Shown piece after piece: positions 1,164 through 32,197 of a stretch of 36,562 nt of DNA. The stretch lies in the IMG/VR virus record IMGVR_UViG_3300021057_000026, positions 1 to 36,562 of that record. One strand, written 5' to 3'. A program made the translations under genes and the position numbers. Under the pieces are notes generated by a model. The model was given only the letters and a program-made list of their open reading frames with translations, made no database searches and was not told the DNA's origin. Within the stretch, counting starts at the first letter, position 1. Every line of letters begins with the position of its first letter. Source of the stretch: a virus.

Positions 1164-2006
1164 TTATTCTCCTTTCCAATTGATTTCAAACGAAGAATTG
1201 CCTTCAACGTATTCTAAATACTTTCGTGCGTATTCACGGATCCTATCATCAAGTTTGTTTTTAAGGAAGTATTTGAATTCTTCACGAAACTTGATTAACT
1301 GCTGATATGGTTTTACATTTTTCGCTTTAGCCAGGGACCAACCGAGGTCGTTAACTAAGCCAAGAGAAACTTGGTAGATGTCAGTATTACAATATTCTCT
1401 AAACCAACTTTCAACCTCTTCATCAAGATACTCGAAAAATTGGGAGGTGATGTTATCTTCTAAAACACACCCACGATCATTAGGATCGTTGATGTACACA
1501 CCATAACACGAAGATCTAACATGACACGAAATCCATTCGCCTTCCGCATCCTCATCATCTTCATCATATGGTTCCTGGTAATAATCTATATACGCCATGT
1601 CGTTGGCAACGTCAGCAATTGTTTTACTGGTTTCATAACACTGTGAAGCATCGTTCTCTCCTAATAAAGAGTATAGAAGATCCTTCATACTATCATCGTG
1701 TGGTCTGTATAATTCACCTAAAAACACTTCGAGATTCATCCCATATGGATAATGTTCCTTGATAAAAAACCTGGCTATCTCTAAAGATTTTAGTTGATCG
1801 GTTACTTGAAACCCATCTTCATTAGATCTTAAATAATCTACCACTTCTCCATACAAGTCGTCAACGGAAGAAGGAATGGTAGAATCAAAATCCGAAACTT
1901 CAAATTGCTGAAGAAGTTGGCGAATATACTTTTGTAGCTCTTCGTCTGGAGGAAAATGCAACTCTATTTGATGCTCAACTAAAATTCTTTTGATAATGTG
2001 TTTCAT
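1164..2006 (-). CDS. CTS-tagged late protein, 280 aa
   Basis: Starts MKHIIKRILVE|HQIE, a typical capsid-targeting-like tag with an L-V-E cleavage pattern. Late motif variant GTATTTAT at 2012-2019 places the ATG 6 nt after TATTTA. The rest is acidic, with no family I recognise; a Cys-rich acidic middle occurs around residues 150-175. Probably a virion internal protein by analogy with T4 internal head proteins (inference). Confidence 0.75.
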   Translation of the reverse strand: MKHIIKRILVEHQIELHFPPDEELQKYIRQLLQQFEVSDFDSTIPSSVDDLYGEVVDYLRSNEDGFQVTDQLKSLEIARFFIKEHYPYGMNLEVFLGELYRPHDDSMKDLLYSLLGENDASQCYETSKTIADVANDMAYIDYYQEPYDEDDEDAEGEWISCHVRSSCYGVYINDPNDRGCVLEDNITSQFFEYLDEEVESWFREYCNTDIYQVSLGLVNDLGWSLAKAKNVKPYQQLIKFREEFKYFLKNKLDDRIREYARKYLEYVEGNSSFEINWKGE

Positions 2007-4684: not shown

Positions 4685-5233
4685 ATGAGGACTGTATTAT
4701 TGACATTAGGGCTATTGTTAGCCGTTTTAACCTGGGGACAAACCTCGGTGAATGTTACTGTTAAGAAAACGGAAGTTACATACGATTCCACACGTCAAGC
4801 CACTTTAAAATATTATGAAGAACTCGACAAAGAACTTTTTGGGTTGATAAATGAATATCGTAAATCTAAAGGTAGAAAAGCGTTGGAGTGGGATCAGAAA
4901 CTATACGATGGAAGTAAACACCATTCGACCTACCAGGCTTTTGCTATGACTTCTGGACACGATGAGTCCATCGATGTGAAGGATTTTACTGAAGAGTCAT
5001 TTAAGGTGAGAGCGGCCAAGTATGATATATGGGGTGAGTGCGTTGCAACTACAGGAGGAAGTCCCCCTAACGTTCAGAAACTACTGGAACTCTGGAAAAA
5101 ATCGCCCTTACATAATAACATCTTACTTGATAAAAACTTTAAGCGAGGAGCTTGTAGTGTCGCATCAATAATGCAAGCATCTAACATTGGGGATAGACAA
5201 AAAAATTATTGTACGTTTGACGGAGCACAATAA
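4685..5233 (+). CDS. secreted CAP/SCP-domain protein
   Basis: 182 aa. Residues 1-18 form a signal peptide (MRTVLLTLGLLLAVLTWG, likely cleaved before Gln19). The rest has the CAP/SCP pattern: LINEYRKSKG at 54-63, a His near 79-80, GEC at 117-119 and SPLHNNILLD at 140-149 (His143), consistent with the CAP cavity residues. CAP proteins are extracellular and some act as proteases or lipid binders. Unlike its neighbours it has no late motif or early promoter. A strong terminator follows. It may act on the envelope, or is host-derived cargo. Confidence 0.75.
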   Translation: MRTVLLTLGLLLAVLTWGQTSVNVTVKKTEVTYDSTRQATLKYYEELDKELFGLINEYRKSKGRKALEWDQKLYDGSKHHSTYQAFAMTSGHDESIDVKDFTEESFKVRAAKYDIWGECVATTGGSPPNVQKLLELWKKSPLHNNILLDKNFKRGACSVASIMQASNIGDRQKNYCTFDGAQ

Positions 5234-5265
5234 AAAAGGCGAGAATTTTCTCGCCTTAATTTTTT
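5232..5265. terminator. bidirectional terminator between convergent genes
   Basis: AAGGCGAG (5236-5243) pairs with CTCGCCTT (5250-5257), loop AATTTT; T-runs on both strands. Separates 4685-5233 (+) from 5264-6280 (-). Confidence 0.8.
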
Positions 5266-6280
5266 AATGCCCTGGCATTTTACATCTAACACCAGAGTTA
5301 CTATATTTCTTCCCAGGCAACTTACCAAGTTTTTTAACTCTTGAATTTTTACCCTTAAAATGATAGGTACCGCTCGGTTTATTCACCGCTGTGGCATTAA
5401 ACATGTGATATGTTTTGTTTATTGATTTAACTTCTGGGTGTGTTTCCTCTTCTTCCACGTCTTTAACGATATCAATAAATACCTTTACGTATCGAGCGGA
5501 ACTATCAACGATCTTTTCTGATTGCCCAGCAACACCACTACCTTGCTCCACTTTAAAGTTCTGACACATGATAGTATCGCTGATACCCATATCGATCAGA
5601 GTCTTTTTAACCTGGTCATTACGAGCGTGAGATAAAGCTGCGTTTCCACCTTCTTTGTAACCCATAGATGCTAATTTTTGCTCCAGGCGAGAACTCAATC
5701 TCTGTTTATCGGTAGATGATTCGATTAGAACATTTACAATCGCACCATCCTTAGACATTGCTGTTACGGTATCAATCAGTGCTTGCTTACCCATAAATTC
5801 GAAACTACCAGATCCGAAGTTCTCTCCAAGATCCAAGCTAATTTCATATCTCTCAACAACAGTTTTATGAGCTACCTCTTTGAAAATGGTATCAACATCT
5901 ACACTGGTCAAATGATAACCAGCACGTAGTAAACTTTGAACCTGTTTCTCGTTTTTTACTGTGATATCACGATAGCGAACAGAGTCAGCATCTTCTAAAC
6001 GATCAATAGCCTTTTGAATGTTATTATCTTCAACACCCATTTTTTTAAGTTGAGAAATCACTTGTGGATTTTCCATAGCAGTTTTCAACTGACCCAGTTT
6101 TTCTGGTGAATAAGGTAGTTTATCCATGCTTTGCGCTGAAGAGGTAGCTACACCAGCTAACATCGCCACCGCTGCTGCAATATTTTGTAACCAACCTTCA
6201 GTTATCACCTCCTGATCCTGATGGACCGACTCGGTGATTATGCGAAGTTGATTTTCTGTAATTTTGATTTTACGTTTCAT
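5264..6280 (-). CDS. CTS-tagged protein with OmpA-like domain
   Basis: 338 aa. A longer tag, MKRKIKITENQLRIITE|S, ends I-T-E; a second possible site is VITE|G at 26-29. Residues 34-49 are a small-residue hydrophobic segment (AAAVAMLAGVATSSAQ). Residues about 145-275 resemble an OmpA-like peptidoglycan-binding domain: GSGSFEF, STD at 189-191, LSHARNDQVKKTLIDMGI at 216-233. Late motif 6285-6292, ATG 5 nt after TATTTA. It could be a virion protein that engages peptidoglycan during entry (inference). Confidence 0.7.
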   Translation of the reverse strand: MKRKIKITENQLRIITESVHQDQEVITEGWLQNIAAAVAMLAGVATSSAQSMDKLPYSPEKLGQLKTAMENPQVISQLKKMGVEDNNIQKAIDRLEDADSVRYRDITVKNEKQVQSLLRAGYHLTSVDVDTIFKEVAHKTVVERYEISLDLGENFGSGSFEFMGKQALIDTVTAMSKDGAIVNVLIESSTDKQRLSSRLEQKLASMGYKEGGNAALSHARNDQVKKTLIDMGISDTIMCQNFKVEQGSGVAGQSEKIVDSSARYVKVFIDIVKDVEEEETHPEVKSINKTYHMFNATAVNKPSGTYHFKGKNSRVKKLGKLPGKKYSNSGVRCKMPGH

Positions 6281-6292: not shown

Positions 6293-6471
6293 TAGTGAAT
6301 CTTGATAATGTATTCTTTTCTACCAACCTGAAACGCTGGGTGGGTGAAATCACCAGAAATATCCAGTAACATTTTAATAGGATGTAACGGATCATTAAAT
6401 GCGGGAATGGACACCCCTGGCTTACCAAGTGTGTATCTAAAAGCTACAATTTGTTCTTTAATCTCTTTCAT
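6292..6471 (-). CDS. hypothetical protein, 59 aa
   Basis: MKEIKEQIVAFRYTLGKPG... Overlaps the end of the 2H phosphoesterase gene by 14 nt, so probably translated from the same mRNA. It ends in the TAA that enters the next late motif. No family recognised. Confidence 0.6.
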   Translation of the reverse strand: MKEIKEQIVAFRYTLGKPGVSIPAFNDPLHPIKMLLDISGDFTHPAFQVGRKEYIIKIH

Positions 6472-7018
6472 CTACTTCCAGGTAATCAAAAATTTTATTA
6501 CCGTCTGGTTTACTATAAACCACTTTAGATGGTTTTAAAACAATCGGTTCTTCCAGGAGATCATGATATTTGGATCCGCATCCTGGTTTTACGTATGCTA
6601 TCGTTGTGTGGGGATGATAATCTGGGAAGTTCGTTGTGAATGGAAATTGCTTTAATGCCGCATTCATTTCGTGTAACTGTTCTCCAACAACATCAAATTT
6701 AACGACATCATATTCTGGATTGTTGAAGGTGGAAATGCTTTGCAGCATTACTTCAGGTGCCGTAAATTGCTTGATAGTATCCATAACCTCCTGATCATTT
6801 AATTCGTTAGAATGTAGCCCGTATAGAATTGTAATATGTGGTTCGTGCTCTAATCCGAATTGCGATTCTTCTGGTTTGTATAGATCCGCTGGATCTATCA
6901 TGGAAATTACATCTTTCCATTCTGGGATTTCGAAGAACAGCATCACACAACCGAAGTCGTATCCTTTTTTTGCTTTTTGTTCTTCTAAAACTCGTCTAAT
7001 AATACCTTGTAGTTTCAT
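6458..7018 (-). CDS. CTS-tagged 2H phosphoesterase-like protein
   Basis: 186 aa from ATG 7018 (late-motif spacing 5 nt; an upstream in-frame start exists but would bury the tag). Tag MKLQGIIRRVLEE|Q. Two H-x-T motifs, HIT at 61-63 (EPHITILYGL) and HTT at 137-139 (YHPHTTIAYV), are the catalytic pair of the 2H superfamily, which opens 2',3'-cyclic phosphates or cleaves 2',5'/3',5'-linked oligonucleotides. Phage Acb1 proteins use this fold to destroy CBASS cyclic nucleotides. The tag suggests packaging and delivery with the DNA (inference). Other 2H roles, such as RNA end processing, are possible. Confidence 0.8.
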   Translation of the reverse strand: MKLQGIIRRVLEEQKAKKGYDFGCVMLFFEIPEWKDVISMIDPADLYKPEESQFGLEHEPHITILYGLHSNELNDQEVMDTIKQFTAPEVMLQSISTFNNPEYDVVKFDVVGEQLHEMNAALKQFPFTTNFPDYHPHTTIAYVKPGCGSKYHDLLEEPIVLKPSKVVYSKPDGNKIFDYLEVDERD

Positions 7019-7038: not shown

Positions 7039-7069
7039 TTGACTTTTTCAAGGCTATTGCTTAATTTTG
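7039..7069 (+). promoter_or_regulatory. early promoter with host-like -10
   Basis: TTGACT (7039-7044), 17 nt, TAATTT (7062-7067), also a perfect TAnnTTTG (7062-7069) with TTG 20 nt upstream. ATG 7074 is 6 nt after the hexamer: probable leaderless mRNA. Confidence 0.7.
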
Positions 7070-7073
7070 TGTG

Positions 7074-7418
7074 ATGGATAGGATACTAAAACACGTTAGG
7101 AAACACCTTTCATATAACCCAGGAATTGAATATTTAATCGGGACCTACAACAAAGAACTTAGACAGTTAGCTGAGATATCCGATGCTGGCTGGCGTGTAC
7201 GACAATATGAATCTTTGATCCATCTACGGAAAATCATTTTCATAGAAACCCTACAATCGATCTACGAGATAACTGGTTTAGATTTCGGGTTTAACAGGTC
7301 GCTGGTGGACCAATGCCTGGATAGATTAGGATTTACCTTACCTGACGGAATAAATGCTAAGGATGTTGAGATGATTAATGCCTTCAACTATATGAAGGGA
7401 TTACCGCTTACTTCCTAA
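7074..7418 (+). CDS. hypothetical helical protein, 114 aa
   Basis: MDRILKHVRKHLSYNPG...; ATG 7074 preferred over GTG 7071 because of promoter spacing. Predicted largely alpha-helical; no family recognised. Its 3' end overlaps the convergent gene 7401-8003 by 18 nt. Confidence 0.7.
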   Translation: MDRILKHVRKHLSYNPGIEYLIGTYNKELRQLAEISDAGWRVRQYESLIHLRKIIFIETLQSIYEITGLDFGFNRSLVDQCLDRLGFTLPDGINAKDVEMINAFNYMKGLPLTS

Positions 7419-8003
7419 TTGACTTCTTAGTTTAAAAAATTCAGATAGTACCACGTTTTTAAAATACTCTTCGATTTTTTGCTCGGTAACTTCGCCACGG
7501 TATTTCGGTAATGGAAAACGTTTAGTATTACCGTTACCCATTTTATAGTTGAATTGAAGGCCAGTCTTGTCGTCAGTAACCATTAAGGTCAGAAATATGC
7601 TATTTCCATATTGATCACGACTTCTATTTTGAAATGACCCCCAATCGTCGTTAAGGTATTTCCAACCCCCACCTTCTAACTGTGTAGCCATTTCTTTGAA
7701 CTTCGGTATGATTAAGGAATATAAGACCCATCCGTTAAGCGGAGCGGTGTTAATTAAAACCGTGTCCGAAAATAATACCTGGTAATTCTGAATATAAATT
7801 TGGAATGTGTTAGCCGCCTCGTATTTATCGAATCCAAGCTCCTCATCTAAATAATGAAACACGTCAGATGCCCTGATCGGATCCTCCAAATTATCACCAC
7901 CAAACTGTTTATGTATGATTCTAAGGATCTTCTTCTGATTATCAGTAAGAGTATCCAGGGTGTCTATAACCGCCTCTAAAAGTATATTTTGAATCTTCAT
8001 CAA
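7401..8003 (-). CDS. CTS-tagged late protein, 200 aa
   Basis: Tag MMKIQNILLE|A. Residues about 50-75 (LGFDKYEAANTFQIYIQNY) match the recurring F-G-I-D-x3-A helix. The second half is beta-rich (GSFQNRSRDQYGNSIFLTL...). Late motif 8021-8028 is 17 nt from the ATG, with the palindrome AGCGTATACGCT between. Function unknown. Confidence 0.75.
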   Translation of the reverse strand: MMKIQNILLEAVIDTLDTLTDNQKKILRIIHKQFGGDNLEDPIRASDVFHYLDEELGFDKYEAANTFQIYIQNYQVLFSDTVLINTAPLNGWVLYSLIIPKFKEMATQLEGGGWKYLNDDWGSFQNRSRDQYGNSIFLTLMVTDDKTGLQFNYKMGNGNTKRFPLPKYRGEVTEQKIEEYFKNVVLSEFFKLRSQLGSKR

Positions 8004-8481: not shown

Positions 8482-9156
8482 TTATAATTGTTTTGCTAAT
8501 TGAATAGCTATTGATTTGAATTGTTCAGGACTGTTAACCTTAATAAATTCTTTGCTATTAGGCCATTGGGTTAAAAGAATGTCCCCAGTAGCAGCCACAT
8601 GAGCAAAAATAGTTTTTTTCGGTAAGGGTCTAATAGGGATTTTAATTGAATTATTATCAAAAGAAATGTGATAATCACGATACCACCCCAATGACGTTAT
8701 GAAATTAAATAAATCTACAAGTCTTTTCTTATCCATACCACTAATCTCGAATAGTGATTCTGGAATATCGCCCTTCATTTTAAATTGCCCCCATAAAACT
8801 CTGTATGGAGAAATATGTAACCCTTTAATACTATTCTTAAAATTATCTGAATGTATAAAATGTTTCAGTATGTCATTCACCTCTTGTTCGTCTAAACCGA
8901 GAATTTCAGTAATACGAGAGGTAAATTTTTTTTTCAAACCTCTTTTAGATACCAAAGGTTCTAATTCATGTCTAATACCCTGTAGGTTTAGAATAAAACA
9001 TATTATGAAATGGTCAATCTCTACCGCACCTCCGTTAGAGGTTTCGTGGAATATTGAGCGCATAACCTTTTCGAAAGTAGGATAGAATTTTTCGTAATTC
9101 GCCACCGTTTCCTTTACGATATGAAGTTGTTCGATAATGATTTTCTTTAACTGCAT
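8482..9156 (-). CDS. CTS-tagged late protein, 224 aa
   Basis: Tag MQLKKIIIE|Q. ITEILGLDEQEVNDILKHF is a clear copy of the recurring helix (G-L-D-x3-V-x2-I-x2-F). Late motif 9161-9168, ATG 5 nt after TATTTA. Function unknown; probable virion internal protein. Confidence 0.75.
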   Translation of the reverse strand: MQLKKIIIEQLHIVKETVANYEKFYPTFEKVMRSIFHETSNGGAVEIDHFIICFILNLQGIRHELEPLVSKRGLKKKFTSRITEILGLDEQEVNDILKHFIHSDNFKNSIKGLHISPYRVLWGQFKMKGDIPESLFEISGMDKKRLVDLFNFITSLGWYRDYHISFDNNSIKIPIRPLPKKTIFAHVAATGDILLTQWPNSKEFIKVNSPEQFKSIAIQLAKQL

Positions 9157-9195: not shown

Positions 9196-9453
9196 ATGAG
9201 ATTTTATAGATACCTTGAACCGTTGGAGGCTCTGGAAAAGGGGTGCATCTTAGAAATGCAAAACGGTATACTGATAGAAGTTACAGATCCTATTGAACAA
9301 ATGGGGGTTGTAATCATGAATGCTCAGACATCCGATTTCAACAAGTGTGTCGATCACATATTAGACTTTGTGAAGAAAAAGCCAGAATACGAGCCTTTAA
9401 TGGGAGAGTTATTGGATTTCGTAAGAGCTTACTTTAGTTACCTGGAGGATTAA
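9196..9453 (+). CDS. hypothetical late protein, 85 aa
   Basis: MRFYRYLEPLEALEKGC... No CTS tag although a late motif precedes it. Acidic C-terminus. It overlaps the convergent gene 9434-9739 by 20 nt. No family recognised. Confidence 0.65.
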   Translation: MRFYRYLEPLEALEKGCILEMQNGILIEVTDPIEQMGVVIMNAQTSDFNKCVDHILDFVKKKPEYEPLMGELLDFVRAYFSYLED

Positions 9454-9739
9454 TGCTACGCAAGTAACGAGCGTGTTCATGTGCTATCTCCAATACCTCT
9501 GAAACAGGCGCACCGTACATTTTAACTAAATCATTAACCATTCTATTTATCAATCTTAACTCGTTACTTTCATCGTAATAGTAGTAGTTGTAGTCCTCTT
9601 CATCCTCGTTCCACACCTTCACATATCTCTCATCGTCCTGATCAATGACAGCATCACTAAAATTAGCTTTTAGGTAATCCAACATCAAGTCCTTCATGGC
9701 TTTATTCAAATGCTCGGTCAATATACGTCTAATCTGCAT
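9434..9739 (-). CDS. CTS-tagged late protein, 101 aa
   Basis: Tag MQIRRILTE|H followed by LNKAMKDLMLDYLKANF, the shared first helix of the paralogous CTS family, then an acidic Tyr-rich linker and YGAPVSEVLEIAHEHARYL as second helix. Start shares a palindromic late motif with the divergent gene at 9750. Function unknown. Confidence 0.75.
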   Translation of the reverse strand: MQIRRILTEHLNKAMKDLMLDYLKANFSDAVIDQDDERYVKVWNEDEEDYNYYYYDESNELRLINRMVNDLVKMYGAPVSEVLEIAHEHARYLRSINPPGN

Positions 9740-9751
9740 ATTTATAAATAT
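9738..9751. promoter_or_regulatory. palindromic bidirectional late motif
   Basis: ATATTTATAAATAT, a perfect 14-bp palindrome, gives a late motif on each strand and overlaps both divergent ATGs by 2 nt (9739 minus, 9750 plus). Confidence 0.65.
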
Positions 9752-10196
9752 GAAACAGTTGATTAAAAGAATATTAAAGGAATCTACTCAACCAGCAGGG
9801 TATTTTTCCGATGCTTTGAGGACCGATATGATAGAAGAGGCCATGAAATTAATGGCGGAAGATCCTGAATACAATACTGGGACCCCTAATTACGATGATC
9901 TATTGGATCCGTGGGACGGGTACGAGTACCAGACTTATATTCAAAATGACCTGGAGAATAATCAGATCGTTTATTGGGAAGGGTGGAGTAAGCAATGTTG
10001 GGATTCGCTATACGCTAAACCAGAATATCATGGCTTAAGTAAACCAAAAGCTATTGTTAAATCCATCACGGAACGCTTTCCTAAGATCGCAGCGGATCTT
10101 GGGTTACATGTGGGAGGTTATGATTATTTCTTCCATGACATTTGGACTGAAGGCGTAGAGGATGGTTACATTATGAAAGTAATTCTAAAGAAATAA
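9750..10196 (+). CDS. CTS-tagged late protein, 148 aa
   Basis: Tag MKQLIKRILKE|STQPAGYF. ATG 9750 is 5 nt after TATTTA; an in-frame start further upstream would hide the tag. The body is acidic with many Trp/Tyr (DPWDGYEYQTY, YWEGWSKQCW) and no recognised family. A terminator follows directly. Confidence 0.75.
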   Translation: MKQLIKRILKESTQPAGYFSDALRTDMIEEAMKLMAEDPEYNTGTPNYDDLLDPWDGYEYQTYIQNDLENNQIVYWEGWSKQCWDSLYAKPEYHGLSKPKAIVKSITERFPKIAADLGLHVGGYDYFFHDIWTEGVEDGYIMKVILKK

Positions 10197-10284: not shown

Positions 10285-10890
10285 TTAAACGTCTTTATAT
10301 TTCCAAAAGAAACCACGCCATTTATTTCTTCTGCCACCAAGCACATGAGATATTCCCCCGTGATGAGTGGAGTTATTATCTAATGCTGCTAAAATTATGC
10401 TGTTATATTCTTTTACCTCTCCATTATCAGAAATTCTAAGAATAGGTTTCCCTCTTCTCCCCTTTTTAATATATCTGGATGTACTTTTTTTAGTCTTTAT
10501 GGGTGTTTTTTTTGGTGCTCGATACCCATATCTTGGATTGCCAGCACCTTTATTTAGCTCACTAAGTTTTTTCTTAGTTTCTTCAGTATGTTTGAATCCT
10601 TTAGAAGAACCAGCCTTTTTCAGTACATTGTATTGTGGGTTAAGTTGACCTATCCAAAATTGCTCACGCTCTATTAAAAATTTAATGTTATCCACCACTT
10701 CCACAACTTCAAAAATAAACGTATTTTTCCCGTACTTATTCCACGCTCGTTGTAGATGAGGTGAGTGATGTTCATTTCTATCTAAATAGTGAACATGATT
10801 CCACCAACGCTTTTTAAAATATTCGGCAGATCCAACGTAACATTCATCACTTATCGTATTACGAATTTTATATATACCACCAACTTTCAC
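10285..10890 (-). CDS. GIY-YIG homing endonuclease
   Basis: 201 aa, GTG start overlapping the previous stop (TAGTG). GIY-YIG domain at about 1-95: GIY at 5-7, YVG at 18-20, Arg28, and Glu74/Glu76 in the ERE segment. Then a NUMOD3-like segment HTEETKKKLSELNKG (101-115) and a basic linker, and a C-terminal DNA-binding repeat (KPILRISDNGEVKEYNSI ... SHVLGGRRNKWRGFFWKY), similar to NUMOD/IENR elements. A free-standing homing endonuclease, probably cutting phage relatives lacking it. Confidence 0.85.
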   Translation of the reverse strand: MKVGGIYKIRNTISDECYVGSAEYFKKRWWNHVHYLDRNEHHSPHLQRAWNKYGKNTFIFEVVEVVDNIKFLIEREQFWIGQLNPQYNVLKKAGSSKGFKHTEETKKKLSELNKGAGNPRYGYRAPKKTPIKTKKSTSRYIKKGRRGKPILRISDNGEVKEYNSIILAALDNNSTHHGGISHVLGGRRNKWRGFFWKYKDV

Positions 10891-11678
10891 TATTTACAAA
10901 TTCTCGGAATCCCGTGGTGAGTTAACCAGTAATACATGATACCATCTTTAACAGAGGGACTATCAATTTCGAATGCCTGTGATAGATAATCGGCAAATGT
11001 TCTTTCGTATCTAAAGAAATCATACAACCCTTCAAAATCGAGAGTGTTATTATTCTTATTTATCATTTTACAAATAAAATCTACCAGGGTAGGGTCAGCT
11101 TTATAAAAAGACATAAACATTTCATTGGTATGAGGTGCTAAACTATCAGCCCAGTCAATAGAACCTCGGACACCCTGTTCGGTAAAAACAGTAGATCGTA
11201 CTTCATTTATATAGTTATAATCTTTATAAACTCTATAGGCTATATAGAGTTTCCCTTTGTGATCAATGCGAATTTCCGCCAAGATGATTGAAGTATCGTT
11301 TACCGCCATCACCGAATCTTCTACGTTTGCAGTGCAATAACCCTTTTTCTTGAGTTCGATAACAATAACATCGATCATATACTCAAAATCTAAGTCATTG
11401 ATCGATTCTTTAATCGGAGGTTTAGATATTCGTAATCTGATCCAGGTATTTAAAATTTCTAATGCCTGTTTTTTATCAACTGCGAATGTTTCTATAATAG
11501 AATTGGCTGCTCGTCCGTAACCGAAAGTACTTTCTCCTGGTTCATTAACATGCCCCTTCGGAGTTATTTTGGGAATGCCAGGCTGACTCTTCTCAACAGA
11601 AAAATTACTGTCGAGGTAAACCAGGATTAAGTCGTTTAATTTTTGATCTAAAGATTCTTTAATGATATTGCGGATCAT
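10890..11678 (-). CDS. CTS-tagged late protein, 262 aa
   Basis: Tag MIRNIIKE|S, then LDQKLNDLILVYLDSNF and, further on, FAVDKKQALEILNTWI: both helices of the recurring CTS-family domain. The C-terminal 150 residues are a separate domain, partly beta-strand (AEIRIDHKGKLYIAYRVYK), with no family recognised. Late motif 11683-11690, 5 nt spacing. The GIY-YIG gene is coupled to its stop. Confidence 0.75.
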   Translation of the reverse strand: MIRNIIKESLDQKLNDLILVYLDSNFSVEKSQPGIPKITPKGHVNEPGESTFGYGRAANSIIETFAVDKKQALEILNTWIRLRISKPPIKESINDLDFEYMIDVIVIELKKKGYCTANVEDSVMAVNDTSIILAEIRIDHKGKLYIAYRVYKDYNYINEVRSTVFTEQGVRGSIDWADSLAPHTNEMFMSFYKADPTLVDFICKMINKNNNTLDFEGLYDFFRYERTFADYLSQAFEIDSPSVKDGIMYYWLTHHGIPRICK

Positions 11679-12259: not shown

Positions 12260-12415
12260 TTAAATGATTGTGATATAACGATTATCTTCGTTACGCCAGA
12301 CCGACAAATATATTTGGTAAGGTCCTTCCATAAGCCGAGTTAGTTTATGTAGGTGATCGGATTCGCTCATAAACCAAAACACCTCTCGCCTGACACCCCC
12401 CTCAAACTCACTCAT
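12260..12415 (-). CDS. hypothetical mini-protein, 51 aa
   Basis: MSEFEGGVRREVFWFMSESD...; ATGA overlap with the zinc-finger gene 12412-12639. It ends IYLSVWRNEDNRYITII. Function unknown. Confidence 0.6.
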   Translation of the reverse strand: MSEFEGGVRREVFWFMSESDHLHKLTRLMEGPYQIYLSVWRNEDNRYITII

Positions 12416-12639
12416 CTCTTTTCTAATATTTTTTTCCCTTTACCGACATGATATTTGTGGCACACAGAACATTTGTAGGCAACTACTTTGTGAATTTGTT
12501 GATCTTTTAAATTAAGACGTTTTGCCTCAGCAATCGCATCTTCTAAAGTCATGAATTTTTTCTTCGGCTGCTTTTTAGCAACCTTCGTTACGGGGTCGAT
12601 GTAAAGTAATTTTTCACAAACGTTCCCGACTGTGCTCAT
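12412..12639 (-). CDS. small zinc-finger phage protein
   Basis: 75 aa, Lys-rich. YKCSVCHKYHVGK at 54-66 (C56, C59, H60, H63) looks like the CxxCxxxHxG end of many small phage zinc-binding proteins. ATGA overlaps on both sides. Role unknown; nucleic-acid binding is plausible. Confidence 0.65.
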   Translation of the reverse strand: MSTVGNVCEKLLYIDPVTKVAKKQPKKKFMTLEDAIAEAKRLNLKDQQIHKVVAYKCSVCHKYHVGKGKKILEKR

Positions 12640-13805: not shown

Positions 13806-14213
13806 CTACCTCATTTTTTTCCAGCGAGAACGATCTCCGTAAAGTTTTTTAATAATTGGTTGATCTTCAAGTGAATTAAGATCGAAAACGCAACGTTCGC
13901 TCATGGTTTCCACCTGAGAAATCCAAGGGTCTACGATATAACGCCCGTCAACTATAGCAAAATCGTGTCCTCCCGCTGCTTGTGCAATTTCTGAAGTGGG
14001 ATTTTCATCTTCGAAGAATCCGAATACTGAACCATTTTCTTTATCAGCTATATAATGGGCGTATGAGGTACATTCAACACCAGAACCGTATCCAGGTATT
14101 GAGGATCCGTTCTCTTCGTCATACTCACAATAATAATCATTGTTATATTTGGTTTCTAACTCTTGGACTCTATTGTAAGTGTGCAAATGTTCAAGTATAA
14201 TCGCTCTGATCAT
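13806..14213 (-). CDS. CTS-tagged protein with papain/transglutaminase-like C-H-D residues
   Basis: 135 aa from ATG 14213 (5 nt from the late motif; a longer in-frame start hides the tag). Tag MIRAIILE|H. Cys48 in GVECTSYAHYI, His83 in GGHDFAIVDG and Asp95 in RYIVDPWI are spaced like the catalytic triad of small papain/transglutaminase-like enzymes (C ... H-x-F ... D-P). Such enzymes cleave, deamidate or cross-link proteins. With the tag, an injected host-modifying enzyme is a reasonable inference. Confidence 0.65.
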   Translation of the reverse strand: MIRAIILEHLHTYNRVQELETKYNNDYYCEYDEENGSSIPGYGSGVECTSYAHYIADKENGSVFGFFEDENPTSEIAQAAGGHDFAIVDGRYIVDPWISQVETMSERCVFDLNSLEDQPIIKKLYGDRSRWKKMR

Positions 14214-16574: not shown

Positions 16575-16838
16575 TTAGTTGGCTGTAAGGGTGTTTTGAG
16601 ATGCTTTGCGATTATTAAACCATTTGCTGATGTAACGGATTGCATCGGTAGTGGAAATATTAAAAGAGGCTGCTATATCATGATATAACTTACTCAATGC
16701 ACCCTGCGGATCCGCTGGCTCATCAATGAAACACATAGATTTTCCCTGTTTCTCAACAGAAAGAAAATTGTCAATGTATTTGAAAATTAATTCATCTAAT
16801 TTAGACTCTAAGTTCTCGGTGATAAGTTTCCTAATCAT
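16575..16838 (-). CDS. CTS-tagged late protein, minimal family member
   Basis: 87 aa. Tag MIRKLITE|N, then LESKLDELIFKYIDNFLSVEKQ and FNISTTDAIRYISKWFNNR. It is almost the N-terminal third of the protein at 10890-11678 (shared SVEK after the first helix) and represents the shared domain alone. Late motif 16844-16851, 6 nt spacing. Confidence 0.75.
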   Translation of the reverse strand: MIRKLITENLESKLDELIFKYIDNFLSVEKQGKSMCFIDEPADPQGALSKLYHDIAASFNISTTDAIRYISKWFNNRKASQNTLTAN

Positions 16839-17437: not shown

Positions 17438-17815
17438 ATGAGAATTACAATCAGGGAACACCTGGATAACAAATATGCTAACATTCTGGAGCAAATCATC
17501 AGATCAATGTTGAACTATAAAGTACGGCGTGATGTGAGTACGGGAAAGGTTGTATTAATGTTTTTAGGGGACGAGGAACGCTTTTCTACCTCTGTGGCGG
17601 ATAAGATGTATGTTGCCTGGGAATATGCTCGTAAATTGAAGAAATACGAGTCTGTGGGGTTGATAGAGGCGTTTTACTTGGTTCTAAAGGTGATCAATGA
17701 ACTCATGGTTGAATTAGATGCTAAACCTACCTGGGTGCCGAGTGCTTACGGTACAGAAGAGAAATATGCCGAAACATTTATCGGTAACAGAAAAGAAAAC
17801 GGGATGTTAGATTAA
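17438..17815 (+). CDS. CTS-tagged late protein, 125 aa
   Basis: Shortest tag, MRITIRE|H, followed by LDNKYANILEQIIRSML as in the sister proteins. Helical C-terminal half. It ends 4 nt inside the convergent gene 17812-18213. Function unknown. Confidence 0.7.
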   Translation: MRITIREHLDNKYANILEQIIRSMLNYKVRRDVSTGKVVLMFLGDEERFSTSVADKMYVAWEYARKLKKYESVGLIEAFYLVLKVINELMVELDAKPTWVPSAYGTEEKYAETFIGNRKENGMLD

Positions 17816-18213
17816 TCTCCTTTTGGTACGGAGTTGCTTTTAATAACTTCGTGATAAATAAAAGATGGTAATAGTCCCTTCGCCAACTCTATCTGTTTTT
17901 CATACTTGCTTATTAGATCCACGACCTTTTGACTCATCACTACGCACTTAGCTAATTCTTCATCGGTTAGAAAAACAAATACCTGGTCGGGTTTTACATT
18001 ATGACCTATGCTCGATGCTGTTGTATTTTTTAATCCGTGAAATTCGTAAGGAATAATTTGCCCGTCCTTTATTTCATATGGTTTATAACCTTTGCGTGTT
18101 AAGCGCAGAATGGTACCCTTCCCAATATAACCTGTGTTGGTTATCAAACGCTGTGTTTCTAACACATGATCAGGATCTGATTCCTGTATTACTTTTTTAA
18201 TGATATCCTTCAT
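17812..18213 (-). CDS. CTS-tagged late protein, 133 aa
   Basis: Tag MKDIIKKVIQE|S. The middle (GYIGKGTILRLTRKGYKPYE, KPDQVFVFLTDEELAKCV) looks beta-rich and SH3-like, but no family is recognised. Two control elements lie upstream: late-motif variant ATATTTAC (18218-18225) and a host-like TATATTTG box (18237-18244). Confidence 0.7.
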   Translation of the reverse strand: MKDIIKKVIQESDPDHVLETQRLITNTGYIGKGTILRLTRKGYKPYEIKDGQIIPYEFHGLKNTTASSIGHNVKPDQVFVFLTDEELAKCVVMSQKVVDLISKYEKQIELAKGLLPSFIYHEVIKSNSVPKGD

Positions 18214-20752: not shown

Positions 20753-20901
20753 AGCGAGTGCATCCCGAATTTATAATATCTGTATTCCATACTCTCCGTT
20801 ACATCATACATCATCTCATTCACCGACCTAAACCTTATATTATGATTAAATTCACGAACAGTCAAATAAAATGTAAACGTTAGATCTATTACCTCATACA
20901 T
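20749..20901 (-). CDS. mini-protein, 50 aa
   Basis: MYEVIDLTFTFYLTVREFNH...; start 8 nt inside the previous gene. A longer in-frame start overlaps that gene by 74 nt and is unlikely. Function unknown. Confidence 0.6.
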   Translation of the reverse strand: MYEVIDLTFTFYLTVREFNHNIRFRSVNEMMYDVTESMEYRYYKFGMHSL

Positions 20902-21217
20902 TAATTTTCTGTTTAAGGTTACTGATGCACCAGTATGTAACCAACTTACGAATACTTTCTTCGTCAAGACCTGTGAAATCTTCTATTTCACTTACTACCG
21001 TTTCCAGGTGATCGATGAATGGAGAATTACGATCTTTGAATTGATAGATGTGATTAAAATCTGGTTTACCAGTTAAGCGATCTTCTTCTTCGTAGCTGGT
21101 TATAATACCATATTCATAAAATTTATCCATCAGTTCGATAACTTTCTTACCGACTCTGGAATTTAGTAGCGCAGCGGTATCCAGGCTCTCACGTATAATT
21201 TGTCTGATACAAGTCAT
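20894..21217 (-). CDS. CTS-tagged late protein, 107 aa
   Basis: Tag MTCIRQIIRE|S, then LDTAALLNSRVGKKVIELMD and a final TGLDEESIRKLVTYWCIS, the family's second helix. Late motif 21225-21232, 8 nt from ATG. Function unknown. Confidence 0.75.
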   Translation of the reverse strand: MTCIRQIIRESLDTAALLNSRVGKKVIELMDKFYEYGIITSYEEEDRLTGKPDFNHIYQFKDRNSPFIDHLETVVSEIEDFTGLDEESIRKLVTYWCISNLKQKINV

Positions 21218-21767: not shown

Positions 21768-21919
21768 TAACGTAAAATCCAGCAATGGTTATCAGTGAAT
21801 GCAAAATCCTTGTTTTGAAATACCAAGTTATCTATGTAATCAGTTATTTCCCACAAACCATCTATTGTAAGTTCATATTGAATTGTCAATAGAAAGGTAT
21901 CTATACACACATCACGCAT
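21767..21919 (-). CDS. mini-protein, 50 aa
   Basis: MRDVCIDTFLLTIQYELTID...; ATG 5 nt after TATGGT, first gene of a three-gene early operon ending in the zinc-ribbon gene. Confidence 0.65.
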   Translation of the reverse strand: MRDVCIDTFLLTIQYELTIDGLWEITDYIDNLVFQNKDFAFTDNHCWILR

Positions 21920-21924
21920 GAATA

Positions 21925-21953
21925 ACCATACATTAAAATTGGTTGATAGTCAA
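21925..21953 (-). promoter_or_regulatory. early promoter
   Basis: TTGACT (21948-21953), 17 nt, TATGGT (21925-21930), ATG 5 nt later. Confidence 0.7.
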
Positions 21954-21954
21954 G

Positions 21955-22566
21955 TTAATCTTCGTAGAAAAAAGAAAGATCGATGTTAAAGAATCGTTCT
22001 AAACCTTTGTAGATTTCACGATCATGGAACCCGTATTCTTCTTGAAAATACTGCACCAATAATCCTATGAGAAAATATCTTTGAAGACCTTTGTAATCAT
22101 AAGTGTTATGAGCCTTTGCAGTGTAACAAGAGGTGATAATATCATGATGGAAACAATATTTCGGATTACCAAACACATTGTCTTTATAGCCGATATTACT
22201 TAGAACATCATAAATGAGTCCCACACTTTTTTCTTCGTTCTCATCTATGCGATTAGGAAAAAGCGGCTTGCGAATTTTCTTAGCCTCAAGTTCAAATAAT
22301 TGAAAAAATTCGGATGCCTGGGTAGCGGAAATGTCAAACATTTCTCTAAGCTGTTGTTTGATTTTAAAACTATCCAGGATGATTCTATCAGTATCCTTTT
22401 CTGCTAAGTAGGTTATCTTCTTATTAGGATCAAAATAAACGTCTATGATCGATTCAAGATAGGGTTTAACCAGAGAATACAGTTTATAGTCCTCCTCATT
22501 CCACAAAATAGTTATCCTGTTAGATTTTTTCGCCTCGGTTAAGATCTTCTTGATGATACTTTTCAT
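21955..22566 (-). CDS. CTS-tagged late protein, 203 aa
   Basis: Tag MKSIIKKILTE|A. Contains FDISATQASEFFQLFELEA (recurring helix) after YSLVKPYLESIIDVYF. A second part (115-203) repeats a similar layout, ending KGLERFFNIDLSFFYED. Late motif 22572-22579, 6 nt spacing. Function unknown. Confidence 0.75.
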   Translation of the reverse strand: MKSIIKKILTEAKKSNRITILWNEEDYKLYSLVKPYLESIIDVYFDPNKKITYLAEKDTDRIILDSFKIKQQLREMFDISATQASEFFQLFELEAKKIRKPLFPNRIDENEEKSVGLIYDVLSNIGYKDNVFGNPKYCFHHDIITSCYTAKAHNTYDYKGLQRYFLIGLLVQYFQEEYGFHDREIYKGLERFFNIDLSFFYED

Positions 22567-30258: not shown

Positions 30259-30609
30259 TTAATAACCTTCTTCATCATCGTATTCTTCATACGACTCATA
30301 TTCGTAAGGCTGAGTATTTGCCCAGGCCGTAGCATGACTCAAAGCACTCATCAACCCGATGGCGAAGTCCTGTCTGATCAAGGTAGCAAGACCAGAAACA
30401 TTTACGTACTTCGGCTCCTCCAAAGTTCTATCAACAATGTTCCCCCTGAATGTTACATTATCCTTTTCATATACATGAACACTGCCATCATCATGGTTGT
30501 GTACTCCCACAAAACGACTGTTTAGATAATCAAATATCAGTTTCTGCATTTTCTCTGATATCTGCTTTTTGTTTTCCTGAAGTAATATTTGTTTGATTAA
30601 CTCTCTCAT
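30259..30609 (-). CDS. CTS-tagged late protein, 116 aa
   Basis: Tag MRELIKQILLQE|N. KMQKLIFDYLNSRFVGVHNH is the family's first helix and RQDFAIGLMSALSHATAWA the second. Acidic tail (EYESYEEYDDEEGY). ATGA junction with the upstream gene; no late motif of its own, so transcribed from 31441-31448. Confidence 0.75.
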   Translation of the reverse strand: MRELIKQILLQENKKQISEKMQKLIFDYLNSRFVGVHNHDDGSVHVYEKDNVTFRGNIVDRTLEEPKYVNVSGLATLIRQDFAIGLMSALSHATAWANTQPYEYESYEEYDDEEGY

Positions 30610-30980
30610 TTTAATAATTTTATTCGATAAATGATGTCAGGATTTTGATCAACATAAGTTTCTAACCATTTAATATAGATATCATGACTCACTTCTTCAG
30701 GAATACTGAATGTATCCTCTATAAATCTATCCACGTATAAGTTTACCATCTGAGCAGACTCCAACCAATTATTTCGATTGAAATAGACCACTTTTCTTAC
30801 ATCATCAACTTTTACATCATTTCTGTTGAAATGAAATTTAAAATTCTTATTTTTTGGATGAGTGGCTATCACGATATTATCTGACAAATATTTCATTATA
30901 AACTGATACATTTTATTCGACTCATTCTCCACTACCTTAGTTATGGTTTCGGTTAATATTTTTTTGATAATATCTTTCAT
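30606..30980 (-). CDS. CTS-tagged late protein, 124 aa
   Basis: Tag MKDIIKKILTE|T. KMYQFIMKYLSDNIVIA (helix 1), strands (NFKFHFNRNDVKVDDVRKVV) and FSIPEEVSHDIYIKWLETY (helix 2): a clean example of the shared domain. Second gene of a three-gene late operon. Confidence 0.75.
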   Translation of the reverse strand: MKDIIKKILTETITKVVENESNKMYQFIMKYLSDNIVIATHPKNKNFKFHFNRNDVKVDDVRKVVYFNRNNWLESAQMVNLYVDRFIEDTFSIPEEVSHDIYIKWLETYVDQNPDIIYRIKLLK

Positions 30981-30986
30981 GTATTT

Positions 30987-31436
30987 TTAGTCTTTAGGAT
31001 TTCCAGTCCCCTGGTAAATGAGGGTAATGTGTGATAATGGAATTGGTTGAAAGGTTACAACGTGCTTATTCTTTTTATCCCAATCAAAATGGCGATCCGT
31101 AAACCATTCGTTCGGTAATCCTTGCGTATCGATTCTGTAGATATCATCATCGTATGGTGAGTCAAACCAATCCTTTTTGTTTTCACTGTTGGTTGCAAAA
31201 ATTGCTGGAGGAAGATGCTTCTTGGAAATAGCACCATCTTCTTCATACCACGACATCGCATGAGATTCGTAACTATCACTAACAGTAGGTTTCAACCCCT
31301 GCTTTTGGATCTTCTTTCGGTAGTACGGATTGCTGGCATGATAAACATATCTCCCAACCTTTACTGGCTTTCCCCCTGGGCTATACTCAGCCTTTTGTTT
31401 AGCCTCCTGTAATATCTTACGAATAAGTTGTTTCAT
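30987..31436 (-). CDS. CTS-tagged ADP-ribosyltransferase-like protein
   Basis: 149 aa from ATG 31436 (5 nt from the late motif). Tag MKQLIRKILQE|A. The body resembles small ADP-ribosyltransferase/KptA-like folds: GRYVYHASNPYYRKKIQKQG at 28-47 (H-x-S with I-x-x-x-GL-x-P), AIFATNS at 79-85, DDDIYRIDTQGL at 96-107, and a final VTFQPIPLSHITLIY. T4 packages an ADP-ribosyltransferase (Alt) with a comparable tag, which modifies host RNA polymerase on entry. Fold assignment is by pattern only. Confidence 0.6.
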   Translation of the reverse strand: MKQLIRKILQEAKQKAEYSPGGKPVKVGRYVYHASNPYYRKKIQKQGLKPTVSDSYESHAMSWYEEDGAISKKHLPPAIFATNSENKKDWFDSPYDDDIYRIDTQGLPNEWFTDRHFDWDKKNKHVVTFQPIPLSHITLIYQGTGNPKD

Positions 31437-31440
31437 GTTA

Positions 31441-31448
31441 ATAAATAT
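31441..31448 (-). promoter_or_regulatory. late motif ATATTTAT
   Basis: TGATATTTATTAAC-ATG; its first T-G-A includes the stop of 31448-32197. Probably drives the three genes 31436-30259. Confidence 0.7.
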
Positions 31449-32197
31449 CAAATCAATTCACTTAACTCTATCAGGTCAAACACATCATCTTTTTGTAAAA
31501 TGGTTTTGAACTCATTACGGATTGTGTGTGAGATATCCACCCAATCAACTTGAACACCATAGCGTTTATTAGCAAACTTACCGCCCCCTAAATTCTCATA
31601 ATTTTCCTTAAGGAACAAAGTGATGTTCGTTAAAAGTTTAGCATCTCGATTGGTAAACAACCATTGTCTAAGAATATGCTGCATCTGAATGGCAACATCG
31701 GTTGTATAAATTAAATCATAGGCCATCGCTGTTTGCTGTAATACCACCAATCCAGTGATTGAATAATTAGAATTTTCTTTACTGAATATGTGAATTCCTT
31801 TAACCTCGTAATTAGATCTGATATAATCCAGTATTTGACTACTCAGCATCTCCACAACAGATTCAGTTTTTGATTCCTTAATCATACCTTGGTTTTTAGC
31901 TTGTTCATTAGCCCATGATACCACTGGCATTAGAACATCCTTGAAATCTATACCGAATTGTTTTTCCACGTCATATGCAATATCAATCAGGCTTATACTG
32001 TGTATTCGAGAGGCATCACTTAACCTGTCAAATAACCACATTCCAGGACTGTCGCTACTGCATGTAGAATATATCTTATAGTTGTTATTCAGATATGGTG
32101 TCAGTAATGAAAGTAATTTATTGACTGAGTTGGTATCAGAATTTGATGGATCTGTACTGACCACCTCAGTTAATATTTTTCTAATCAGCTTTTTCAT
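31448..32197 (-). CDS. CTS-tagged late protein with internal domain duplication, 249 aa
   Basis: Tag MKKLIRKILTE|V. Copy 1: VNKLLSLLTPYLNNNYKI ... FGIDFKDVLMPVVSWANEQ; copy 2: VEMLSSQILDYIRSNYEVKG ... TDVAIQMQHILRQWLFTNRD. So two shared domains in tandem, then a third block (KRYGVQVDWVDISHTIRNEF). Late motif 32202-32209, 5 nt spacing. Confidence 0.75.
   Translation of the reverse strand: MKKLIRKILTEVVSTDPSNSDTNSVNKLLSLLTPYLNNNYKIYSTCSSDSPGMWLFDRLSDASRIHSISLIDIAYDVEKQFGIDFKDVLMPVVSWANEQAKNQGMIKESKTESVVEMLSSQILDYIRSNYEVKGIHIFSKENSNYSITGLVVLQQTAMAYDLIYTTDVAIQMQHILRQWLFTNRDAKLLTNITLFLKENYENLGGGKFANKRYGVQVDWVDISHTIRNEFKTILQKDDVFDLIELSELI

Follow-up and report, generated by a model that had tools for sequence, protein, structure and literature searches.

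Because CBASS-type defences switch on in the course of infection, an anti-signal enzyme that is synthesised only once infection is under way runs a race with them; if such an enzyme were already in the head, the timing of counter-defence would change. For phage T4, PMC9026906 gives a length of 10-19 residues for the capsid-targeting element (CTS), names residues 8 and 10 as those that determine its processing, and states that the first 10 residues of IPIII are enough to bring a protein into the head. The T4 acb1 gene adjoins ipI, whose product is injected, according to PMC9117128. Iyer et al. 2017 (PMC5512222) predicted that solo phage 2H proteins, and the 2H domains found in virion MuF/portal fusions, could act as RNases or as degraders of defence nucleotides.

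The gene described here lies in the window, by which we mean the whole 36,562-nucleotide stretch of IMG/VR virus record IMGVR_UViG_3300021057_000026. Its main elements are the following:

6458-7018, minus strand: 2H phosphoesterase gene with an N-terminal capsid-targeting-like tag, 186 aa
6980-7018, minus strand: tag MKLQGIIRRVLEE, residues 1-13, with predicted cleavage after E13 (L11-x-E13), based on motif conservation and own-phage match; a low-confidence helix in the model
6830-6838, minus strand: first catalytic HxT motif, H61-I-T63, invariant in 33 members
6602-6610, minus strand: second catalytic HxT motif, H137-T-T139, inside NFPDYHPHxT, invariant in 33 members and aligned with T4 Acb1 H113/T115

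The minus-strand ORF encodes 186 aa plus a stop from an ATG at 7018; a start at the in-frame TTG at 7051 would lengthen the protein by 11 residues, but the ATG is favoured by the relatives. The product belongs to the 2H phosphoesterase superfamily, and the fold is firm, because both HxT motifs are invariant and fold matches reach a Z score of 14.1. The sequence-only reading had assigned it to this superfamily from the two motifs (HIT 61-63 and HTT 137-139), and the assignment is confirmed by the Pfam and fold matches and by the invariance of H61, T63, H137 and T139 in an alignment of 33 relatives. In Pfam, the window protein matched PF13563 (2_5_RNA_ligase2) at 33.1 bits, above the cut-off, and higher than PF23474 (Acb1), which barely passed at 27.9 bits versus a cut-off of 27; in PHROG it matched phrog_755 'RNA ligase' (39.5 bits, 8e-10). 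With the protein as sole query, a phmmer search of the PDB gave no relevant match, and PADLOC gave no match. The protein stands alone, its 186 aa including no MuF/portal or other virion domain. Its AlphaFold2 model (pLDDT 84.6, pTM 0.77) is confident in the core and renders residues 3-16, at the tag, as a low-confidence helix apart from the core, with residues 14-19 at pLDDT < 50.

By eye, a similar N-terminal stretch is present on 17 further window proteins. A strict regular expression recovered the tag in 15 of 43 window ORFs of at least 80 aa and in 2 of 34 internal-Met controls. When the N-termini in the window were compared in pairs, 39 of 903 comparisons scored at least 24, a score reached by none of 561 pairs of internal-Met segments. 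The tagged proteins, recognised by N-terminus comparison unless marked otherwise, are:

1164-2006, minus strand: tagged protein MKHIIKRILVEH
5264-6280, minus strand: tagged protein with a second tag type, MKRKIKITENQLRIITES
7401-8000, minus strand: tagged protein MKIQNILLEA (by eye; missed by the regular expression)
8482-9156, minus strand: tagged protein MQLKKIIIEQL
9434-9739, minus strand: tagged protein MQIRRILTEH
9750-10196, plus strand: tagged protein MKQLIKRILKES, from the second ATG of the ORF
10890-11678, minus strand: tagged protein MIRNIIKES
13806-14213, minus strand: tagged protein MIRAIILEH, from the third start of the ORF (by eye)
16575-16838, minus strand: tagged protein MIRKLITEN
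17438-17815, plus strand: tagged protein MRITIREH
17812-18213, minus strand: tagged protein MKDIIKKVIQES
20894-21217, minus strand: tagged protein MTCIRQIIRES
21955-22566, minus strand: tagged protein MKSIIKKILTEA
30259-30609, minus strand: tagged protein MRELIKQILLQEN
30606-30980, minus strand: tagged protein MKDIIKKILTET
30987-31436, minus strand: tagged protein MKQLIRKILQEA, with no Pfam match
31448-32197, minus strand: tagged protein MKKLIRKILTEV

Several of these (9434-9739, 10890-11678, 30259-30609, 30606-30980 and 31448-32197) look by eye like paralogues with a common stretch around YLxxNF, so that a family of cargo proteins may have expanded in the window. The 30987-31436 product resembles, again by eye, an ADP-ribosyltransferase/RNA 2'-phosphotransferase. 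The second tag type, MKKVIRLTESDLxxIVKRVIxE, is common to many unrelated proteins (L173-L180 in record G004, L135 in G016, and window 5264-6280) and offers two candidate cleavage motifs, LTE and IxE. Elsewhere in the window, 4685-5233 encodes a CAP-domain protein of secreted type and 801-1028 a small membrane-type protein, and relatives of the two are neighbours in G004 (about 80.2-81.0 kb); two other window proteins had no relatives in viral contigs. Part of the likeness among tags within the window may be paralogy among small proteins, which makes comparison across phages the stronger test.

Related loci in IMG/VR numbered 49. In nearly all of the 2H relatives an extension precedes the conserved core, and its sequence varies between phage groups (for example MKDLIKKILKEE, MIKSFTQFIAGLFEKK, MIKLKSLLKEA and MESQEFKRMQELAGIIVEE). 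The first motif count used 46 of the 49 loci, leaving out L046 and L049 (incomplete) and L050 (too distant); together with L191-L194 and the window these made 51 rows, among which L045, L047 and L048 were uncounted (no recognised core), and the other 48 rows, with starts picked by eye, gave 32 distinct extensions (L035 has no ATG, and its extension was read from the stop onward). The motif [LI]xE occurred in 28 of the 32, compared with a shuffled mean of 11.6 (SD 2.6, maximum 22 in 20,000), and in 16 of 20 extensions after clustering (6.5 when shuffled). An independent set, from contigs unused before, took as the start the first ATG lying no more than 32 codons from the core (unresolved at 3 of 52 loci); of its 36 distinct extensions 31 contained the motif, where shuffling gave a mean of 10.5 and at most 21, and the five exceptions comprised two with VNE and three untagged or start-ambiguous sequences ending MSEKQTY/MSDKQTY. 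None of the control patterns [LI]E, [KR]xE and [AVG]xE was enriched in the relatives' extensions, while [LI]xxE (18/32 vs 11.0 shuffled) and [LI]xD (10/32 vs 4.0 shuffled) were weakly so. Across whole genomes, the frequency of [LI]xE at N-termini was weakly raised or not raised at all in several cases (ratios 0.70 to 2.53). The motif Glu sits at residue 10-19 of the extensions, inside the T4 CTS length range. Judged from these alignments, the extension on the 2H relatives is not a product of chance, and the motif counts, with the pairwise comparison within the window, uphold the earlier claim that the protein carries a tag.

Relatives confirmed came to 259 (80 of the 259 among the matches listed), and alignment A2 comprised 106 proteins hand-picked from 228 regular-expression matches plus the window proteins. 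In the tree, untagged rows require three label changes, and the T4 Acb1 branch is too long for placement. Similar untagged relatives starting MSEKQTY or MSDKQTY (L276, L279, L281, L283, L288, L300 and L302) form a natural control set for tag loss. At L043:9821-10675 a 2H relative has a Cys-rich N-terminal region where the tag would be, and ORF-281 of Tenacibaculum phage PTm1 is a remote, untagged 2H protein, the BFVD match being tied to ORF-281 by length and motifs.

The tags are also matched to the phages that carry them. Using 19 records, we scored each 2H extension against the N-termini of every other gene per record; an unnormalised tally of tag-like N-termini, comparing the own record with the others, was mixed and was replaced by a normalised permutation with controls. 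After removal of tag and genome effects, the excess in the own record was +4.40 (permutation SD 0.78; 0/20,000), rising to 4.90 in the 14 less related records (permutation SD 0.94; 0/20,000), and the window record's own excess was +6.2. Replacing N-termini with internal-Met segments (excess 0.23, p 0.31) or random segments (-0.05, p 0.54) abolished the signal, and five segments of the 2H body put in place of the tags gave none either (-0.27 to 0.75, p at least 0.06). The excess was absent for 4 of the 19 tags (G008, G006, G001 and G022). In G020, six other genes begin MIKL with a continuation similar to the 2H tag, and in G024 the 2H gene belongs to a series of consecutive MIKLK-like tagged genes at about 29151-36624 (L189), close to the major capsid gene. 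The series includes a second gene with a weak, below-cut-off match to tRNA_lig_CPD (2H-fold). Likeness of a tag to others of its own phage is how a capsid-targeting propeptide behaves, and the sequences are consistent with that role.

The comparison with T4 extends to the tag itself: the N-termini of IPII/IPIII (MKTYQEFIAE), gp24 (MAKINELLRE) and gp22 (MLKEQLIAE) resemble the 2H tags. We take the T4 cleavage points to be MKTYQEFIAE|A in IPII/IPIII and MAKINELLRE|S in gp24. In G001, G003, G004 and G022, the major capsid protein opens with a short stretch ending LLES, such as MSSINSLLES. The T4-type protease PF03420 was matched in 8 of 25 records searched (6 over the cut-off) and gp23 (PF07068) in 9 of 25, and a gp21-type protease was found in 5 of 8 records of a further set; the window record, at 36.6 kb perhaps a fragment, matched neither PF03420 nor PF07068 and has no head gene. 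Fragment-only gp23 profile matches, in short ORFs apart from any full gene, occur in G019 (133357-133506 and 190314-190466), G015 (21885-22052) and G018 (12332-12475 and 56204-56458, both with an in-frame TAA). In G019 and G015, the tagged 2H gene adjoins a tagged GP88-family (PF17338) gene (L085:2194-3204, L133:4350-5417). T4 Acb1 is untagged, though T4 has a CTS system, and Molly, Colly and LR756508 have untagged 2H relatives, yet match PF03420 and gp23 (PF07068). The rule 'tag if and only if T4-type protease' was rejected on these three, and the tag is not obligatory, since untagged relatives occur in phages with a T4-type protease. Delivery in the capsid, as the sequence-only reading had proposed, draws strong support at the sequence level from the T4-CTS-like length, [LI]xE, the genome-matched tag and the T4-type protease and capsid genes of several carriers, and the lack of a head gene in the window record counts against it; on balance, the tagged 2H protein is probably delivered in this way.

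As to the substrate, all 33 aligned members matched PF23474 Acb1 in Pfam at E<=0.01, with 31 matching 2_5_RNA_ligase2 and 8 LigT_PEase, and the best PDB match of the family profile was Acb1 (9q2g, E=0.0031), followed by an archaeal 2'-5' RNA ligase-like protein (1vdx, 0.0084). Ligand residues of Acb1 were taken from PMC9117128. The T4 tetrad H44/T46/H113/T115 is conserved in the 2H relatives, and the positions of the stacking residues W74 and F107 are aromatic in 18 of 18 aligned rows (F in all 18 at W74; 16 F and 2 Y at F107). For a third stacking aromatic, Y12, the N-terminal strand of the relatives aligns unreliably with T4. Two further contacts are not conserved, the adenine-contacting E141 being mostly K and the lid W147 varied, in a C-terminal alignment that is itself uncertain. 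In the structure search, human Usb1 scored highest (Z 14.1), followed by drCPDase (13.4), Acb1 9q2g and plant ADP-ribose cyclic phosphodiesterase (both 12.6), LigT (12.5), rotavirus VP3 (12.4-12.5), poxvirus cGAMP PDE (12.2) and FBB1 Acb1 (11.9). With Usb1, CPDase, LigT, rotavirus VP3, poxvirus cGAMP PDE and Acb1 all fitting the model at Z 11.5-14.1, the predicted fold does not separate candidate substrates. The proposal of an Acb1-type anti-CBASS enzyme thus keeps the backing of the PF23474 and PDB profile matches and is weakened by the non-discriminating fold and the two unconserved contacts; from these comparisons, an anti-CBASS function is plausible and is the leading reading.

Were the same fold to serve another substrate from within the capsid, it might act as a Usb1-like 3' exonuclease or RNase, or as a phosphodiesterase of ADP-ribose cyclic phosphate or 2'-5' linked nucleotides. 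Usb1 heads the structural ranking, and the plant ADP-ribose cyclic phosphodiesterase and rotavirus VP3 are tied with Acb1. A fold in common proves no function, however, and the sequence matches favour Acb1 over LigT_PEase (33/33 vs 8/33 members), so that we regard these substrates as quite unlikely, even though Iyer et al. 2017 (PMC5512222) name Usb1-like RNase action first. That the helix is no capsid signal at all, and instead a general element of localisation or regulation in the phage (membrane, replication compartment or protein partner), is improbable. The tags are mostly amphipathic and lysine-rich, untagged homologues exist in phages with T4-type protease, and both capsid cleavage and virion presence are predictions from sequence; nevertheless, the [LI]xE constraint alongside unenriched control patterns, the likeness to the T4 CTS and the similar N-termini on the carriers' own capsid proteins, MSSINSLLES among them, speak against such an element.

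An alternative with the same capsid delivery is RNA end-healing, in which the packaged enzyme would act on the 2',3'-cyclic phosphate ends left when host anticodon nucleases cut tRNA or other RNA as infection begins. 2H enzymes open such RNA ends, and RNA ligases are frequent in carriers, their families being matched in roughly half of the records, with PF09511 in 10 of 28 records and PF09414 in 13 of 28 (11 over the cut-off); PF18760, found in 0 of 28 records and in none of the controls, is uninformative. In G019, a tagged kinase-plus-tRNA-ligase-CPD protein accompanies a tagged PolyA_pol (CCA-adding type) enzyme (L087; 206318-207256 and 214300-215460), a pair that is a possible packaged RNA repair kit. 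A 2021 jumbo-phage survey also gives phage 2H proteins a partial role in RNA end clearing (PMC7824862). Yet G001, G003, G021, G022, G023 and Colly, the last a complete circular record, have the 2H gene with no match to PF09511 or PF09414. The Rnl1-type ligases of G004, G005 and G010 begin, by eye, in the ligase body without an extension, so that 2H enzyme and ligase would not travel together (in the fourth ligase, from G019, the extension could not be judged), and Iyer et al. 2017 (PMC5512222) found these phage 2H domains in no case linked to RNA ligases. Taken together, we consider RNA end-healing unlikely.

The reading that we prefer is of a 2H enzyme with a capsid-targeting propeptide of the T4 internal-protein type, packaged, ejected with the DNA and acting on a defence nucleotide; as a whole it is tentative, falling a little short of an even prospect, whereas, given capsid delivery, a defence nucleotide is moderately likely as the substrate. 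From the 2H fold, the catalytic tetrad, the tag, the conservation of its motif and its match to the rest of the phage, all of them read from sequence, we infer docking, cleavage, packaging, ejection and substrate. During head assembly, the enzyme would be docked by its tag in the core of the prohead, whose protease would then cleave after Glu13 (L-x-E), and the cleaved enzyme would stay loose in the head and leave it together with the DNA at ejection. In the cell, it would most likely linearise a defence nucleotide, either a cyclic oligonucleotide of CBASS type or a related signal, ahead of phage transcription. Somewhat more doubtful, but quite possible, is the generalisation that many large phages, several with T4-type heads, have a modular capsid cargo system of dozens of unrelated proteins per phage, each with the phage's own protease-cleavable tag, in which an Acb1-like enzyme would be a recurrent cargo, re-tagged on moving between phages and destroying defence signals from DNA entry. 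Phage-specific tags would also provide a sequence handle for predicting injected phage proteins among uncharacterised ones.

Compared with Acb1 (T4 gp57B, FBB1; PF23474; Hobbs et al. 2022, PMC9117128), the protein is likewise phage-encoded, with a 2H fold, the HxT/HxT tetrad, a DYxPHxT block and aromatics at the W74 and F107 positions. It differs in lacking conserved counterparts of E141 and the lid W147, in its N-terminal tag, which T4 Acb1 does not have, and in an identity of about 14% to FBB1 Acb1 in a structure alignment. The best-scoring sequence families are PF13563 2_5_RNA_ligase2 and phrog_755 'RNA ligase', where 'ligase' is an annotation name that implies no activity. Like T4 IPI-IPIII/Alt, which are processed by gp21, it has a short N-terminal propeptide ending in hydrophobic-x-Glu that is common to unrelated proteins of one phage; unlike in T4, the tag sequences vary by phage, and the putative cargo, assigned a capsid role from sequence, consists of a 2H enzyme and many uncharacterised proteins. 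The earlier statement that delivery ahead of signalling was not described proved too strong, as a kindred idea was predicted by Iyer et al. 2017 (PMC5512222), although no packaged Acb1 was recognised in the literature searched, which took in a minority of subscription papers. With the polyvalent-protein 2H domains of that study, the present enzyme shares the prediction of virion delivery against host RNA or defence nucleotides; those domains are fused to MuF/portal, whereas the enzyme here is free and has an apparently removable tag. What was already predicted in 2017 is thus a virion-borne 2H protein directed against nucleotide signalling, and what appears to be new is that an Acb1-like enzyme, free of any fusion, carries a tag that matches its phage and is apparently removable.
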